The position numbers were made by a program, and so were the translations under genes. A stretch of DNA of 64,000 nt from Candidatus Sumerlaea chitinivorans (lineage in GTDB: Bacteria; Sumerlaeota; Sumerlaeia; Sumerlaeales; Sumerlaeaceae), in NCBI GenBank assembly GCA_003290465.1, contig CP030759.1, positions 1,331,144 through 1,395,143 on the forward strand, in the 5' to 3' direction. Under the pieces are notes generated by a model, which ran no database searches, had not been told where the DNA came from, and worked only from the letters and a program-made list of their open reading frames with translations. This document shows positions 1,132 through 7,405 of this stretch, one piece after another. Position 1 is the first letter of the stretch; every line of letters begins with the position of its first letter.

Positions 1132-1167
1132 GAAAAAAAATGAAAATCTGATCCCACGGTGATTAGA
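1132..1167 (-). terminator. Possible terminator of the lipid-type operon
   Basis: A short stem with one mismatch (1147-1167, 7-nt loop) overlaps the stop codon of the acyltransferase gene. On the minus strand it is followed by TTTTCATTTTTTTT (1146-1133). The stem is weak but the T-run is long. Confidence 0.4.
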
Positions 1168-2062
1168 CCGTTTTACCCCATATCTGGCGCTCAAACTGCT
1201 TCAATGGCAAACTCGTCGGGTTACATTTGGCGTAATTAATATATGACACCGCAATCATGCGAAGAACATCCTCGACCTGGTCTGGGGTACGAATTTCCAA
1301 CGCGGGACCAAACTCAAGGATAAGCTTGTTTTCCTGGATGGACGCTTGACACGGCAAGACGGGAACGCCTGCGAGTCGCGCGACTTGCAAAATTCCAGCC
1401 CGCAGGCGGAACAGACGTCCCTCCACCTCAAACTCGTGAATTCGTTCACCGTAAATGCCGTCTACATAGGCAAAGACATTTTTGCCCGCTCGCAGACGTT
1501 CCAGTAAGGCTTTCAGAATTGCTGCAAAAGGGGTGTCCGGCGTGATAAACAAGGCTTCAGCACCATAGAAGATTAGCTTCTTGTGCAAAGAATGCGTCAC
1601 TGCAGTTTTTTCTGGTCGTCGAAGAGTACAGAAAGGAATGCCGCGGCAAACGGCGTAGGCCGCACAAAGGTGGCTCCAATGACTATGGAGTCCAACGAGA
1701 ACGACCGACCCATACTCCCTTATCGCCTTGGTAACCAAATCGAACCCATTAGGGACCACAAATTGCTCCACGTAGCGGACCGGAGCAAAGGGTAAATAAC
1801 CATGCGCGTAGCGCAGGATTACGTTCTCTACTGCTTGCCTGTGGGCAAGCTTAGAGGGCGAGCGTTTGAGCTTCTCCGCTGTTGCCAACTGTTCTTGCAA
1901 GCGGCGGTAAAATTTCACGCGTTTTCGGAATCGTTTCCGCGAGGAGAGGCGTTCCCAAAAAGCTTGGCATTGCGCGATCGCGGGCAAAAACCACGGCGGG
2001 AGATGGGCCACAACAATTGCAATCACATGAGAAACTCGCCATGACGCTTTATTGGGATTCAT
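1163..2062 (-). CDS. LpxL/HtrB-like lysophospholipid acyltransferase
   Basis: This 299-residue protein resembles the LpxL/LpxM (HtrB) acyltransferases, inner-membrane enzymes that move an acyl chain from ACP to a lipid acceptor. Seen: a hydrophobic N-terminal segment (about 11-30), the core VVLVGLHSHWSHLCAAY around residue 120-136, and the downstream FAYVDG and FRLRAGILQVARLAGVPVLPC segments, which fit the family's later blocks. The usual catalytic motif is H-x4-D/E; here the spacing gives H126-x4-H131, so the acidic partner is missing or shifted. Its ATG overlaps the end of the ligase gene by 4 bases, so translation is probably coupled. With an ACP-bearing enzyme and a ligase beside it, the acceptor may be something other than lipid A. 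The substrate is not readable. Confidence 0.75.
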   Translation of the reverse strand: MNPNKASWRVSHVIAIVVAHLPPWFLPAIAQCQAFWERLSSRKRFRKRVKFYRRLQEQLATAEKLKRSPSKLAHRQAVENVILRYAHGYLPFAPVRYVEQFVVPNGFDLVTKAIREYGSVVLVGLHSHWSHLCAAYAVCRGIPFCTLRRPEKTAVTHSLHKKLIFYGAEALFITPDTPFAAILKALLERLRAGKNVFAYVDGIYGERIHEFEVEGRLFRLRAGILQVARLAGVPVLPCQASIQENKLILEFGPALEIRTPDQVEDVLRMIAVSYINYAKCNPTSLPLKQFERQIWGKTV

Positions 2063-3435
2063 TGAAGTTGTGCCTTTTGGAGCTTCCCCATCGCGTTTCG
2101 AGGTAGAGAGTCCCGGAATTCGATTTTTCGGGGCACCTTGAAAGGTGCAAGCCGAGCGGAGCAGAATTCAATCAACTCAACGGCGGAGACAGCGGGACCA
2201 GCAACGACATAGGCCTTGATCTGTTCAACTCCATCCGGGTCAGGCTCGCCGACAACGGCGGCGTCGCCAACGTTGGGATGCTGAAGCAGTACCTGCTCGA
2301 TTTCAGCAGGGTCTACCTTATGTCCAGCAGCAGCAATCAGCGTTTTGATTCTCCCTCGGAAATACAAAACTCCCTCGCGAAGCTCACCGAGATCCCCCGT
2401 ATAAAAACGGTCTCCCTCAAACCGGCCTCCGCCCTCTACACTCGAGTCATAGCCAAGCGCCACAGCGGGAGATTGGACCATAATCTCGCCGATCAAGATG
2501 GAAGAAGCGTGCTCGTCCTCAGGGAGCGGGCAAAGCGACACCATGACACCCGGACAAAGCTGACCTAAGGCGAGACGCTCACCATCTAGCGTCCCATTGC
2601 GGTTTAGCGCCACGGGACCGCTTTCACTCGTCCCATAGCTCTGCCAGAGCGGGCAGGCAAAGTGCTCAGTAAAGCGCTGCCAAATCCGCGTGGCTAACGC
2701 AGTGCCGACACTGATCCCTGCACGCAGGGGTAAATTGGAAACATTCTCGGGTGCGAAACGCACTAAGAGATCGAAGAAGACCGGCGCGGCGGGCAAGAGG
2801 GTTACGTTATGTGACTGAACCAGCTCAAGCGCTACGCGCGGATGCACCATGGAAGGCAAGATCATTGTGGCGCCCGACAGCATGGTCGCCAACACGACGT
2901 TATGAAAACCATAACTGTGTTCCAAGGGGAGGACAGCGAGAATTCGGTCGGCCGAAGTTAGCCCGACACTCTGAGTATAGATGCGTGCACCCGCCAGAAT
3001 TTGGGAACGACTTCTGAGGACAAGTTTTGGTGTCCCCGTGGAGCCACTGCTGAGAAGCCCAAGCACTGGGGGTTCAGGGAACAGCCGGCTTTCATTCGCC
3101 GAAGGGGGCGCGTGGGGACCCGCAAATTGAGAAACATCATCGTCGCGGACCAGATAAGCTGCGGAGGCGGTTGCGGCGAGTGTCTCCGTCTCTTTTTGGG
3201 GTGTTTGCCATGCGATGGGAATCTGCAGCGCCTCCATCTCAAAGAGGGCAAGTAAGTTCTCGACAGTGGCAAGTGAGTGATTGCAAGCGACAAGCACCCT
3301 TGCACCGCGCGAAATACCACGTGATTGCAAGAACTGCTTGCGACGCGCTACGCGTTCTATGAGGGCATCGTACGAGACTGTTTCACGCTCAGTGATCACG
3401 GCGGGTGTCGGACGCGGCAGGAGCACATCAACCAC
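2059..3435 (-). CDS. AMP-forming acyl-CoA synthetase / acyl-ACP ligase family protein
   Basis: A 458-residue member of the ANL (acyl-adenylate-forming) superfamily. It should activate a carboxylic acid with ATP and pass it to CoA or to a carrier-protein thiol. Seen: the phosphate-binding loop LLSSGSTGTPK (127-137), YGTSESG in the middle, the YTGDLG segment, KVDPAEIEQVL, and a C-terminal PRNAMGKLQ containing the likely catalytic Lys451. It is a little shorter than typical acyl-CoA synthetases (about 500-550), mostly at the N-terminus. It lies 11 bases after the threonine-synthase-ACP gene and overlaps the acyltransferase by 4 bases. The adjacent ACP domain makes a carrier-loading role plausible. 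Substrate unknown. Confidence 0.85.
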   Translation of the reverse strand: MVDVLLPRPTPAVITERETVSYDALIERVARRKQFLQSRGISRGARVLVACNHSLATVENLLALFEMEALQIPIAWQTPQKETETLAATASAAYLVRDDDVSQFAGPHAPPSANESRLFPEPPVLGLLSSGSTGTPKLVLRSRSQILAGARIYTQSVGLTSADRILAVLPLEHSYGFHNVVLATMLSGATMILPSMVHPRVALELVQSHNVTLLPAAPVFFDLLVRFAPENVSNLPLRAGISVGTALATRIWQRFTEHFACPLWQSYGTSESGPVALNRNGTLDGERLALGQLCPGVMVSLCPLPEDEHASSILIGEIMVQSPAVALGYDSSVEGGGRFEGDRFYTGDLGELREGVLYFRGRIKTLIAAAGHKVDPAEIEQVLLQHPNVGDAAVVGEPDPDGVEQIKAYVVAGPAVSAVELIEFCSARLAPFKVPRKIEFRDSLPRNAMGKLQKAQLQ

Positions 3436-3446
3436 GCTTACCCTCC

Positions 3447-4937
3447 CTATGCCGAGATCATCCGGGAGCTAAGCCGAGCTCGGAAATAGTCGGCCACGTG
3501 GCCAATGGTGGCAAAATTATCTGAGCAAATATCAGATGGGGAGATCTTGCAGTCGAACTCTTTCTCAAGCGAAAGGACCAACTCAAGCATCGCCACGCTA
3601 TCGAGGGCGAGTCCGCCACCCATAAGCTTTGTTTCAGTGTCGAGCTCGACATCGGTCGATAGGTTGAGAGCGGTCCGAACAACACGCATCACCCGATTTA
3701 GGCATCCTTCATCCTGCCCCTCGCGATAAGGCGTAACTTCCCAACCATCACGAGCTTTTTCGACAACATAATCCGGGTCAGGGTAAGGAGCATTTTTCCG
3801 ATCGGATCCCGTGATGTTGAGCATAACGACATCATCAGGTTTTAGCCATCCCGCGCGAGCAAGCTTCTGCGCTGCCACAACCGTCATGGTCGCCGTGTAG
3901 CAGGCGTCAATGCCTTCGAGTTCGTAGAGCACTTTGCGCATTTCGCGCATTTCATCCTGCGTGGCAGTTACCATGGTGCCGTTGGTTTTTAGAACGACCG
4001 AACGAATATAGGGATAAGCAAGCGTGGGATCGCCGCGCAAAGTGGACTTGGAGAGCCCCCGCGGGAAAGGAATGATGTGTTCTGGCGTGATCTTCTCGGC
4101 ACCTGCATCCCAAGCACGCACCATGGGATTGCATGTTTCTTCTTGGACGCAAACGAGGCGGGGCATGTAGGGGATTTTTTTGAGCCGCAGATAGTCATAA
4201 GCCCCACGATAAGTCGAGTAAACCCCAAAGCCGCTGCTGACAGCCTGTATGTAAACATCGATTGGCTTTGGGATTTGATCAGTAGCCTCGAGGTAGGCGG
4301 TTTTGAGGCCTTCGCGTTGACCAAAGAAAAATATCCCTCGTGCCGAGGTGATACCCGTTTGCTGTGCATACCACGCTGCAGCCTTGTGAGCATCCACAAA
4401 CGTTCCGTTCTTAAGCCAGTAGACGACCAGATTGGGGGATCCGACCACGTTAATCCGGCTGAGGAATTCGTCGCCGACAAAGAGGTGCATCTTCATGTCA
4501 GGGAAACGGGCCACGATCCGTGCAATGGCTGTTGAGGAGTTCCCTGTGGAGCTTGTCACAAATTCCAACACACCCATTTCGCGGAACACGGCCACCGGCA
4601 GCGCGCCCTGTCGGTCCTTGGTGCTGCCGGTCGGGTTTTTTGTCTCGTCTTTCAGGTAGAGGTTCGAAAGCCCGAAACGCTTTCCCAGCTCTTTGGCATG
4701 GACGCAGGGTGTGTTGCCCTCTCCCCCGTCAATGATTGATTCGCGCTTCATGAGAGGAAGCAGATCAAAGAACCTCTCTCCGGTCGGCCCGCTCGGGGGG
4801 ATATGGACCTTTTCCAAGTTGTACTCAACGTCGAGTAATGCCCCTTCACAGTCCTTACACTGAAGCGTGAACGACCACGGGTATTCGCGGCCACACTTAC
4901 TGCAGACCAATTTCATCTTGTCATTGACCCACCCCAT
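3447..4937 (-). CDS. Threonine-synthase-like PLP enzyme fused to a C-terminal acyl carrier protein
   Basis: A 496-residue two-part protein. Residues 1-35 hold a zinc-ribbon-like knot (C12, C15, C27, C30). Residues about 60-400 form a fold-type II PLP enzyme of the threonine synthase/cysteate synthase group, with the PLP lysine in NPTGSTKDR (K107), a phosphate-binding SSTGNSSTA (129-137) and TGSDR near 377. Residues about 412-490 form an acyl carrier protein with the phosphopantetheine site LALDS (S447). Classical threonine synthase is not expected to carry an ACP, so a beta- or gamma-replacement on a carrier-linked or carrier-destined amino acid is more likely than threonine biosynthesis; this is inference. 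The ATG at 4937 follows AAAGGAAG at good spacing. Next comes the ligase, 11 bases on. Confidence 0.85.
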   Translation of the reverse strand: MGWVNDKMKLVCSKCGREYPWSFTLQCKDCEGALLDVEYNLEKVHIPPSGPTGERFFDLLPLMKRESIIDGGEGNTPCVHAKELGKRFGLSNLYLKDETKNPTGSTKDRQGALPVAVFREMGVLEFVTSSTGNSSTAIARIVARFPDMKMHLFVGDEFLSRINVVGSPNLVVYWLKNGTFVDAHKAAAWYAQQTGITSARGIFFFGQREGLKTAYLEATDQIPKPIDVYIQAVSSGFGVYSTYRGAYDYLRLKKIPYMPRLVCVQEETCNPMVRAWDAGAEKITPEHIIPFPRGLSKSTLRGDPTLAYPYIRSVVLKTNGTMVTATQDEMREMRKVLYELEGIDACYTATMTVVAAQKLARAGWLKPDDVVMLNITGSDRKNAPYPDPDYVVEKARDGWEVTPYREGQDEGCLNRVMRVVRTALNLSTDVELDTETKLMGGGLALDSVAMLELVLSLEKEFDCKISPSDICSDNFATIGHVADYFRARLSSRMISA

Positions 4938-5004
4938 TCTTGTGCACTTCCTTTCCTGAGAACGCGCTTCCCGCGGTCATTTTAATTATCTCAGTTGAAA
5001 TTGG

Positions 5005-6270
5005 TCAGCTCGTCGCAAACAATAAGTTGCCGAGATGAGCGATCACGCCATGAGTGGATTCTACGGTCAACCTGGAAAGTTGGCCTCGTACTTCGTCCGC
5101 CTTAGCGTACTGAAAGCCTAACCGCTCAACTGTGGCAGGAGACAACTCGGTCACCATCACAATTCGGCAATGGCGCCGAATTTGCTCTAGCCAAAGCGCA
5201 TTGTGACCTAAGATAAGAGTGCCGGATGCGATCCGTTCACGCAAGAGGCGGGGATCTTGGACTTCGGTGGCCTGAAGCAGCCATTCAGGGATGCCTTCCG
5301 GACATTCTGCAAAAAAGAAGATCGTTCCTCCGGGGCGGACGGCCTGATAGGTACCGATCAACGCTTTGATTGCTTGAATTCCATTCACGTCATACGGCGC
5401 TCCGCCGGCGCTCAAGATCATCCAGTCGTAGGGTGATTCCACGTGCACCCGGTCGAATTGCTCGACGATTCGTACAGCTGCACGGTGAGAAGTTTCGAGT
5501 TCTCCTCCAAAGGCGTGGGTAATCTGGTGCGAAGTATTTAGAACGGTGTTCAGCGAAAAGTCCGGGGGTACAAAGCGCGCTGCTTCGAGCATATCCTCAT
5601 GGATGGGGTTCCCGTCGAGGACCCCGGGGGCCGTGGCGGGATTTAGTCTGACTTCTGGGTGATAAAGCACGGCCATACTGTGGTTCCGTCGGACCGTTGT
5701 CTTGCGACTGACGCCGGGCAAGACGGCCTTGCGGCCACCACTGAATCCCGCAAAGTAGTGGTAGGTCACGCGTCCAGTTGCTATGCGAAGATCGGCATCT
5801 AAGTACCGCTTGCTCAGCCAGACTTCGGTGCCACGCGAAGTGGTTCCTACACACGCGTGTTTCTCGGGGGTATCGCAATCGTGCCCTTCAAAGCCCACAC
5901 GTCCCACGAGCTCGCGTCCCAACAGTAGCTCCGCGTCTTGTTCCCGGAAATTGTCGTGGGTCCCCGTAGCGGTGATCACTGTTATCCGTTCTTCGGGAAT
6001 GCCTGCCTCCACAAGACGACGGACGATCTGCTTGAGGTAGCGATCCGACCCCGTGCGTCGGGTTCGACACGCAATAAGAATGACTGCATTGCGCTTGCCA
6101 CGCGCCAACTCTTGTAGCGGCGGCGAGGCGAGAGGGCGATCCAGCGCCTCCTCCAAAAGCTCGTCTTCACTTACGCATGGCGCCTGACTGTTCGGGGCAA
6201 TGGACTCAGTTGCCTCGGGTACTTCCAACGCAATGCTCCCACTTCCGTACGCTATCGCTACTGTTTTCAC
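5005..6270 (-). CDS. LarA-family nickel-dependent 2-hydroxyacid racemase
   Basis: A 421-residue LarA-family protein (DUF2088 N-terminal domain). LarA interconverts lactate enantiomers using a nickel-pincer nucleotide covalently bound to a lysine. The residues known to matter in LarA can be aligned here: H105 in ATGTHD, H171 and K181 in the segment TYHYFAGFSGGRK, and H197 in NHSM. That supports a functional cofactor site. Many LarA relatives act on other 2-hydroxyacids, so lactate is not assured. The cofactor makers LarB, LarC and LarE are not in this window. It overlaps the small membrane protein by 4 bases and is followed after 67 bases by the threonine-synthase-ACP gene, so it probably belongs to the same transcript and may supply a hydroxyacid stereoisomer. 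Confidence 0.85.
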   Translation of the reverse strand: MKTVAIAYGSGSIALEVPEATESIAPNSQAPCVSEDELLEEALDRPLASPPLQELARGKRNAVILIACRTRRTGSDRYLKQIVRRLVEAGIPEERITVITATGTHDNFREQDAELLLGRELVGRVGFEGHDCDTPEKHACVGTTSRGTEVWLSKRYLDADLRIATGRVTYHYFAGFSGGRKAVLPGVSRKTTVRRNHSMAVLYHPEVRLNPATAPGVLDGNPIHEDMLEAARFVPPDFSLNTVLNTSHQITHAFGGELETSHRAAVRIVEQFDRVHVESPYDWMILSAGGAPYDVNGIQAIKALIGTYQAVRPGGTIFFFAECPEGIPEWLLQATEVQDPRLLRERIASGTLILGHNALWLEQIRRHCRIVMVTELSPATVERLGFQYAKADEVRGQLSRLTVESTHGVIAHLGNLLFATS

Positions 6271-6524
6271 GGCTTGGATCCCTCCTCCTCGGATGGAATG
6301 GCCTTTTCAGAGTCCGTCGGCTGCATACTTTCTGCGGCCGTTTTCGCGCGTTGCTGCAGTGCAAGCTGCGTTTCCAATTCTGCGATGCGAGCCGACAACC
6401 TTGCTGCACGAATCGCAAAAAGCAGCACCGCTCCGCTTAGCAAAACCAACGCGACAGCCAACCATACGACAAGGGTCGCTAAATCGCCAACCAATGGTAA
6501 GCGTGCAACGTAGAACTCGTTCAT
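6267..6524 (-). CDS. Small single-pass membrane protein with C-terminal helix
   Basis: An 85-residue protein of unknown function. Residues about 12-44 form one long hydrophobic segment (LVVWLAVALVLLSGAVLLF), followed by a helical stretch rich in A, L, E and R that could form a coiled coil, and then a charged tail. It overlaps yicC upstream and larA downstream by 4 bases each, which argues that it is really translated. The form is like small LapA-type membrane proteins, but I cannot assign it. Confidence 0.65.
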   Translation of the reverse strand: MNEFYVARLPLVGDLATLVVWLAVALVLLSGAVLLFAIRAARLSARIAELETQLALQQRAKTAAESMQPTDSEKAIPSEEEGSKP

Positions 6525-7405
6525 TCTATATTTTGCACCTGCTCGCGAATCTTTTCCAATTCGTTCTTTGCTTCGATGACCGCTTGAACCACCGTGATTC
6601 CTCGGACCTTACTGCCGATCGTGTTGACTTCCCGGCCAAGCTCCTGAGTGAGGAAATCCATTTTTTTTCCGAGAGCCTCTGCAGTGGAGTTGGGAAGAAG
6701 TGCTTCGAAGGCATCTAAATGCGAACGCAAGCGCACCAACTCTTCAGTAATATCCAATTTGTCCGCCAAAAGACCAAGCTCCATCTCGAGTCGGGCGGGA
6801 TCCACTTCAATCCCGGAGGTCGCGGCAAGGGTTCGCATGCGTTCGGCAAGTTTGTCACGAATCTGTGACTCAAGAGCGTCCTTCTCGCGGGCAATTGCAT
6901 CCGCACATTCTCGCACTCGTTGCAAGTGTTGGCGAATGGCCTCACAGAGCGCCTGGCCCTCGCCACAACGGCTTGCATCCCACGCTGCAAGTGCTTGAGT
7001 GACCACTTCTATGGCACCCGCCATTAGCCCTTCGGTTTCCGAGGCAAGTTCGGTTGGATTCACAACGCCGGGCAGCTGAAGGAGGGAGCCAAGATCGAGA
7101 GCGATCCCATTGGTCACCGTCAACTCGCGTAACTCGTTTAGATAGTGCTGAAGAAGTGGGCGGTTGATTTCATAGAAGGGCGGAGCTGTGGGAGCTGGCG
7201 TCCAACGAAAAAAGACGTCGACTTTGCCGCGGTGGACGTGTTTACGCACCAAGGAACGTATGGAGGGTTCAAGAAAACCCAGCTCACGCGCAACCCGCAC
7301 CGTAAGGTCTAAATGACGATTGTTTACCGAGCGGATCTCGGCAGCAAAATCTCCTGTGGCGTTCGTCAGGCGCGCCGATCCATATCCAGTCATGCTGCGA
7401 ATCAT
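6521..7405 (-). CDS. yicC: YicC/YloC family endoribonuclease-type protein
   Basis: A 294-residue YicC-family protein, matching the usual length. The family starts with MIRSMTGYG, seen here from the ATG at 7405; an in-frame ATG at 7447 would add 14 residues not typical of the family. Other hallmarks are EIRSVNNRHLD near the N-terminus, RGKVDV, and the C-terminal LTQELGREVNTIGSK block followed by AKNELEKIREQVQNIE. YicC proteins have been linked to small-RNA turnover and RNase activity. In many bacteria gmk and rpoZ follow; here the next genes are a small membrane protein and larA, joined by 4-base overlaps. Confidence 0.9.
   Translation of the reverse strand: MIRSMTGYGSARLTNATGDFAAEIRSVNNRHLDLTVRVARELGFLEPSIRSLVRKHVHRGKVDVFFRWTPAPTAPPFYEINRPLLQHYLNELRELTVTNGIALDLGSLLQLPGVVNPTELASETEGLMAGAIEVVTQALAAWDASRCGEGQALCEAIRQHLQRVRECADAIAREKDALESQIRDKLAERMRTLAATSGIEVDPARLEMELGLLADKLDITEELVRLRSHLDAFEALLPNSTAEALGKKMDFLTQELGREVNTIGSKVRGITVVQAVIEAKNELEKIREQVQNIE

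Follow-up and report, generated by a model that had tools for sequence, protein, structure and literature searches.

Two described systems come closest, in their way of working, to the locus reported here. In AlmEFG of Vibrio cholerae, glycine is loaded on a carrier and moved to lipid A (PMC4790380, PMC12930378), and in Dlt the same logic, with an MBOAT, serves the D-alanylation of teichoic acid (PMC3783018). The locus itself is a four-gene operon in the genome of Candidatus Sumerlaea chitinivorans (G000; 3.29 Mb, single contig), contained in a stretch of 64,000 nucleotides of contig CP030759.1 (positions 1,331,144 to 1,395,143 of the forward strand), which is called the window below and to which coordinates refer unless another locus is named. 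All four open reading frames (ORFs) lie on the minus strand, in the order larA-like gene, fusion of a pyridoxal 5'-phosphate (PLP) enzyme with an acyl carrier protein (ACP), ANL ligase and LpxL-like gene, with the following features:

5005..6270, minus strand: larA-like gene, 421 aa, GTG start; divergent subgroup of the nickel-pincer-nucleotide (NPN) 2-hydroxyacid racemase/epimerase superfamily.
3447..4937, minus strand: PLP fold-type II enzyme (threonine/cysteate synthase-like) fused to a C-terminal ACP, 496 aa, ATG start.
3792..4937, minus strand: PLP-enzyme domain of the fusion, residues 1-382; zinc-ribbon-type N-terminus (C12, C15, C27, C30), PLP lysine K107 with codon 4617-4619.
3468..3710, minus strand: ACP domain of the fusion, about residues 410-490; invariant D446-S447-V448, phosphopantetheine serine codon 3597-3599.
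2059..3435, minus strand: ANL superfamily acyl-adenylating ligase of the small-carboxylic-acid type, 458 aa, GTG start.
1163..2062, minus strand: LpxL/PatA-fold (LPLAT) acyltransferase-like protein, 299 aa, ATG start; His126 codon 1685-1687.

An earlier note on this DNA, made from the sequence alone, had described four minus-strand genes here, and the ORF positions confirm them together with the gaps of 67 bases between larA and the fusion (4938-5004) and 11 bases between the fusion and the ANL gene (3436-3446). It had also spoken of 4-base overlaps; a single one lies inside the four-gene set, between the ANL ligase and LpxL-like ORFs (2059-2062). The families named in it, LarA, PLP fold-type II, ACP, ANL and LpxL, were all recovered, by Pfam and NCBIfam for the first three genes and through orthologues and a structural model for the LpxL-like one. 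Its remark that no named system has this set also held: neither a paper on this gene combination in the open-licence PMC literature nor a named pathway in the family libraries was found.

AlmEFG and Dlt, which the earlier note missed, appear by analogy to be the closest working counterparts. With AlmEFG the operon shares a ligase, a small carrier and an LPLAT/LpxL-like transferase to a membrane lipid (PMC12930378, PMC4790380, PMC3783018), the likeness to AlmG being one of description and not of sequence comparison; these three parts are encoded together, in one operon, in six genomes. AlmEFG, however, includes neither a LarA nor a PLP enzyme, AlmF stands as a protein of its own, and AlmE takes glycine, whereas the operon ligase lacks the A4 Asp of an amino-acid-activating ligase and seems to be of a non-amino type. 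The logic of ligase, carrier and membrane acyltransferase is likewise shared with DltABCD, and a DltB-like MBOAT occurs in a related cluster of a second phylum described below, but the window operon contains neither DltB/MBOAT nor DltD, its ligase and carrier are not DltA and DltC by family score, and its building-block enzymes are additional. Judged by its sequence, the operon would share the working of AlmEFG or Dlt without belonging to either system, since its ligase does not look like an amino-acid-activating one and its acyltransferase is without the acid of the HX4D/E motif. We tentatively propose, giving it a little less than an even chance, that the operon is a carrier-protein-dependent acyl-transfer pathway, AlmEFG- or Dlt-like in its working, that also makes an unusual building block for itself. 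Carrier-dependent acyl transfer is already known; the core of LarA, PLP enzyme and ACP appears to be undescribed.

Comparison of related genomes showed that six Sumerlaeaceae genomes, the host included, share this order of the four genes, one of the five others being split over two contigs. In four of these loci (L024, L025, L026 and L027) all four frames are open, the fusion ORF is full-length and the order is unchanged; L028 and L029 are the two pieces of one genome, in which the order agrees as far as the contigs reach. Identity of the fusion protein across the six genomes is 55-73%. The genes flanking the window operon (yicC, a GNAT gene and a gene for a secreted protein) are common to L024 and L029 only, and in L025, L026 and L027 the operon is flanked by other, unrelated genes. 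Since the flanks change while the order stays, conservation of the four-gene block does not depend on what surrounds it. The operon is present in six of the eight genomes of the family; one of those without it is 92% complete, the other only 66%. A genome survey of the phylum found it absent from the remaining Sumerlaeota genomes outside the family, and a scan of 84,980 species returned relatives of the fusion protein from Sumerlaeota records only. A plasmid search for the fusion gave only ordinary threonine synthases at 26-31% identity, and a scan of viral contigs gave no match.

The LarA-PLP enzyme-ACP core recurs in a second phylum, which is represented by four genomes. A profile search of 386 genomes gave genome G136 as the top match outside the family (422 bits, against 175 for the next), and its genus-mate G386 also carries the triad, in both cases within a cluster of eleven genes:

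L059, 644-11070 (G136:C130): second-phylum cluster of eleven genes.
L078, 761-12605 (G386:C22): second-phylum cluster of eleven genes.

The shared order is LarA, PLP enzyme, ACP, AsnB-like amidotransferase, DltB-like MBOAT (43.6 bits), second ACP, ANL ligase, DUF2889, second AsnB-like protein, second ANL ligase and a membrane-type protein, the last of which (362 aa) has no Pfam match. Here the PLP enzyme stands alone, at 45% identity to the window PLP domain, and the ACP is a separate gene that starts 4 bases past it; the Sumerlaeaceae fusion therefore corresponds to neighbouring genes elsewhere. In phylogenetic trees, the operon LarAs of both phyla form one clade (support 99/99), as do the operon PLP enzymes (support 100/99), away from paralogues of the same genomes. 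As the LarA and PLP clades match across the phyla, the pair has stayed together. On this evidence of order and descent, the four genes can be taken as a real functional unit, and the earlier note's view of them is upheld; an order confined to this genome, which the note had named as a ground for rejection, is contradicted by the relatives. With PLP enzyme and ACP fused in one phylum and encoded apart in the other, the two arrangements make a natural pair for asking which enzyme acts on the carrier.

The operon larA, identified by Pfam Lar_N (PF09861, 187.1 bits), is the sole Lar_N gene found in the host genome, the genome-wide gene counts being taken from a sequence search of that genome. At curated NCBIfam cut-offs its product reached no named LarA equivalog (LarAH5/6 malate racemase, LarAH10, lactate racemase); the best was LarAH6, at 314.6 bits under a cut-off of 500, and the LarA of L059 scored 377 bits against a cut-off of 540. 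A check of cofactor genes, which took in LarB and LarC, found the two adjacent elsewhere in the host genome (LarB at 285 bits, cut-off 175; LarC over its cut-off). With LarA single-copy and LarB and LarC present, the nickel-pincer pathway of the host probably serves the operon LarA.

Residues were numbered as in LarA1 by alignment to 2YJG. The operon clade retains much of what characterizes the superfamily, namely the catalytic H108 and H174, the NPN Lys184 (K184), the nickel His200 (H200), and R75, Q295 and K298. It differs from it at Asp72, replaced by Cys in the six Sumerlaeaceae and by Gly in G136 and G386 (Asp in 16 of the 16 other homologues compared), and at Tyr294, which is Ile or Met. 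The selectivity positions 175, 176, 358 and 359 are Tyr, Phe, His and Asn. In the published patterns, lactate racemases (LAR) show F, F, W, E/Q at these positions, malate racemases (MAR) have H/Q at the third and K at the fourth, and hydroxyglutarate racemases (HGR) show Y, F, H/Q, T (PMC11770544); the Y/F/H/N set has no exact match among the LAR, MAR, HGR and GntE patterns, the nearest being that of HGR (PMC11770544). A malate racemase was considered and ruled out, the malate-binding Lys at LarA1 position 359 being Asn. These residues suggest a distinct subgroup that would act on a small polar hydroxy acid. The reactions known for the LarA family use hydroxy acids in free form (PMC7583248, PMC11770544). 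For about half of the superfamily no reaction has been assigned; the tie between the genome's only LarA and a carrier protein offers one unassigned LarA group a concrete, testable context.

The ANL ligase matches AMP-binding (PF00501, 151.4 bits) and AMP-binding_C (67.3 bits) of Pfam and keeps the conserved adenylation motifs in alignment. Its A4 region reads PLEHSYGF, without the Asp that binds the alpha-amino group, and the Asp of the nonribosomal peptide synthetase (NRPS) motif FDxS aligns to a gap. Its nearest solved relatives are oxalate, feruloyl, benzoate, succinylbenzoate and malonyl-CoA ligases. The earlier note had suggested that a hydroxy or amino acid could be held on the ACP. Carrier-bound acyl transfer remains reasonable, and since the ligase is closest to carboxylic-acid ligases and lacks the A4 Asp, a hydroxy or other non-amino acid is the more likely carrier-bound group and an amino acid the less likely one.

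Within a single ORF the fusion carries PALP (PF00291, 130.4 bits) and PP-binding (PF00550, 28.8 bits, cut-off 20.8). K107 and the cysteines C12, C15, C27 and C30 are invariant across alignments, as is the DSV that holds the carrier serine S447. For the fusion, AlphaFold gave a model of moderate quality (mean predicted local distance difference test, pLDDT, 70.8; low over the ACP), and no domain arrangement is claimed from it. The earlier label of threonine synthase was in part correct, the domain being threonine/cysteate synthase-like; its closest solved relative, ahead of threonine synthase, is a cysteate synthase, CapA2 of Alistipes finegoldii (9k3c; 107.8 bits by sequence, E 1.2e-20 by fold), at about 23% identity. 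Family scores fall far short of the cut-offs for both threonine synthase (145.9 against 303 bits) and cysteate synthase (121.8 against 324.9 bits), and the host's other threonine-synthase-like genes lie in a clade apart from the operon enzyme. CapA2 belongs to the capnine/sulfonolipid pathway, from which the operon differs in having neither cysteate fatty-acyltransferase nor ketocapnine reductase; nor is CapA2 fused to an ACP.

The ACPs resemble AmcB and AsbD-type stand-alone carriers. In petrobactin biosynthesis an acid ligase, AsbC, loads the stand-alone carrier AsbD, as is proposed for the operon, but no aryl acid genes were recognised near the operon and its ACP domain scores 29.8 bits with AsbD, far under the family cut-off of 100. 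The NCBIfam model ACP_for_OlsHI was also matched. The ornithine-lipid system OlsHI was ruled out, as the operon contains neither the GH3-like enzyme type of OlsH nor the alpha/beta hydrolase type of OlsI (PMC12493201).

Taken alone, the LpxL-like protein of the window reaches 14.4 bits with PF03279, under the Pfam cut-off of 22.3, whereas the family is matched by six of the six orthologues (best E 1e-13). Its AlphaFold model (pLDDT 85) matches PatA (6.5e-10) and LpxM (6.8e-8) in a Foldseek search of the PDB, and PatA was also found by profile. The assignment, as predicted from sequence and model, is therefore weak for the window protein by itself and firm for the orthologue set with the model. 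His126 and Asp201 are invariant in the orthologues. The host's only other LpxL-like gene (L146:3597-4622; G000:C1:812737-813564) is broken by an in-frame stop; its orthologues L150, L151 and L152 are intact.

From the gene content, fusion, order, cofactor genes, PLP lysine, carrier serine, LarA signature and acyltransferase fold observed here, we infer every reaction step, substrate, loading partner and acceptor of the acyl-transfer pathway as follows. LarA, with its nickel-pincer cofactor, would fix the stereochemistry at C2 in a small polar 2-hydroxy acid, which the ANL ligase would adenylate and load as a thioester onto Ser447 of the ACP domain. Joined to the ACP in one chain, the PLP domain may run a beta-replacement or elimination-type reaction on an amino acid, and so supply or elaborate the amino-acid part of the product beside the carrier. 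The LpxL/PatA-like enzyme would then move the carrier-bound group to a membrane lipid or a lipid-like product. The proposal draws on the presence of the AlmEFG parts (ligase, carrier and LPLAT-type transferase), on the DltB-like MBOAT of the second phylum and on LpxC, which the host genome encodes, so that lipid A is available as acceptor. If it is true, the logic of AlmEFG and Dlt extends to a new building block, and a new membrane component is predicted. The phyla concerned are almost entirely uncultured.

A broader reading, which we regard as doubtful, takes LarA, the PLP fold-type II enzyme and the carrier as a building-block module, in which a remodelled nickel-pincer enzyme would make a stereo-defined small acid that one lineage attaches to the envelope by an LpxL-like enzyme and the other by an MBOAT. 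Such a module would yield a new kind of lipid or envelope decoration. We know of no other NPN enzyme in a carrier-protein pathway, and this would be the first if the reading is true.

Several observations weigh against the proposed acyl transfer. AlmE and DltA activate amino acids, and the operon ligase is without the Asp that binds the alpha-amino group. The equivalent of Asp72 touches the cofactor ribose in solved LarA-like structures (PMC12611868), and its loss from the operon LarA means that we infer even the use of NPN. The acid of the HX4D/E motif is missing from the LpxL-like proteins, the six orthologues having H, H, G, A, G and H as the fifth residue past His. A straightforward LpxL reading is weakened by this, and the activity is uncertain; Sumerlaeaceae paralogues outside the operon (L148, L150, L151 and L152) are also without this acid, and its loss is therefore a lineage trait and not decay of the operon gene. 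The second phylum has an MBOAT and amidotransferases where Sumerlaeaceae have the LpxL-like gene, and the acceptor may differ. Finally, the carrier could be loaded with a fatty acid instead.

A fatty acid on the carrier is central to the main rival, an aminolipid or sulfonolipid-like pathway, which we consider unlikely. The PLP domain would make an amino acid (e.g. cysteate from O-phosphoserine), the ACP would receive a fatty acid from the ligase, and N-acylation of the amino acid by the LpxL-like enzyme would yield an N-acyl amino acid lipid, with LarA supplying or recycling a side-chain or hydroxy-acid component. CapA2, closest to the PLP domain by sequence and by fold, does come from a sulfonolipid producer, the LPLAT fold is typical of lipid acylation, and long-chain-fatty-acid ligase models are among the top NCBIfam matches of the ligase. 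Yet identity to CapA2 is low and the cysteate synthase score far under its cut-off, the operon has no gene for a cysteate fatty-acyltransferase or reductase, most solved relatives of the ligase act on small acids, and LarA, a member of the most conserved triad, is left without a clear role. Somewhat less probable still is a small soluble natural product, in which LarA, PLP enzyme and ACP would provide the starter or extender unit of a small specialised-metabolite cluster and the LpxL-like protein would do no more than release the product from the carrier. The company of the triad in G136 and G386 (AsnB-like enzymes, a second ACP and two ANL ligases) fits this alternative, as does the resemblance of the ACPs to AmcB and AsbD-type carriers, but no polyketide synthase, NRPS condensation domain, exporter or regulator was recognised beside the Sumerlaeaceae operons, where the majority of flanking ORFs were assessed by reading alone. 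The terminal gene, moreover, has a membrane-acyltransferase fold, and most family members keep the operon, as they would a housekeeping envelope component. That the genes are chance neighbours with no common pathway is highly improbable. Each enzyme family is common by itself, and the window operon is also joined by 4-base overlaps to a small upstream ORF (6267-6524, overlapping larA at 6267-6270) and through it to yicC (6521-6524). However, the order is held in six genomes at the fusion identity given above, and a second phylum has the LarA-PLP-ACP core, with clades that match; chance neighbourhood was rejected on the conserved order and changing flanks.

Examination of the surroundings gave some further observations. 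In the window, yicC and the small upstream ORF, which encodes 85 aa and looks like a single membrane span, run into larA (6267-7405), an arrangement seen only in the closest relatives. Just downstream of the operon, 335-1027 encodes a secreted-looking protein that has no match in Pfam or NCBIfam and is 73% identical to the product of a gene at the same place in L024. In L026 only, a FabF-like ketoacyl synthase gene, identified by sequence reading, immediately precedes the operon in the same orientation (L026:5221-6504).

Among 400 genomes of the phylum of G369, only another fusion family was found, in which a threonine-synthase-like PLP enzyme is joined to a response-regulator receiver. This fusion is common in that phylum (L060:7467-9104, L156, L158 and L162), its receiver domain being confirmed by Pfam in L060 only. 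In L060 it adjoins signalling genes and looks like a sensor or a regulated enzyme.

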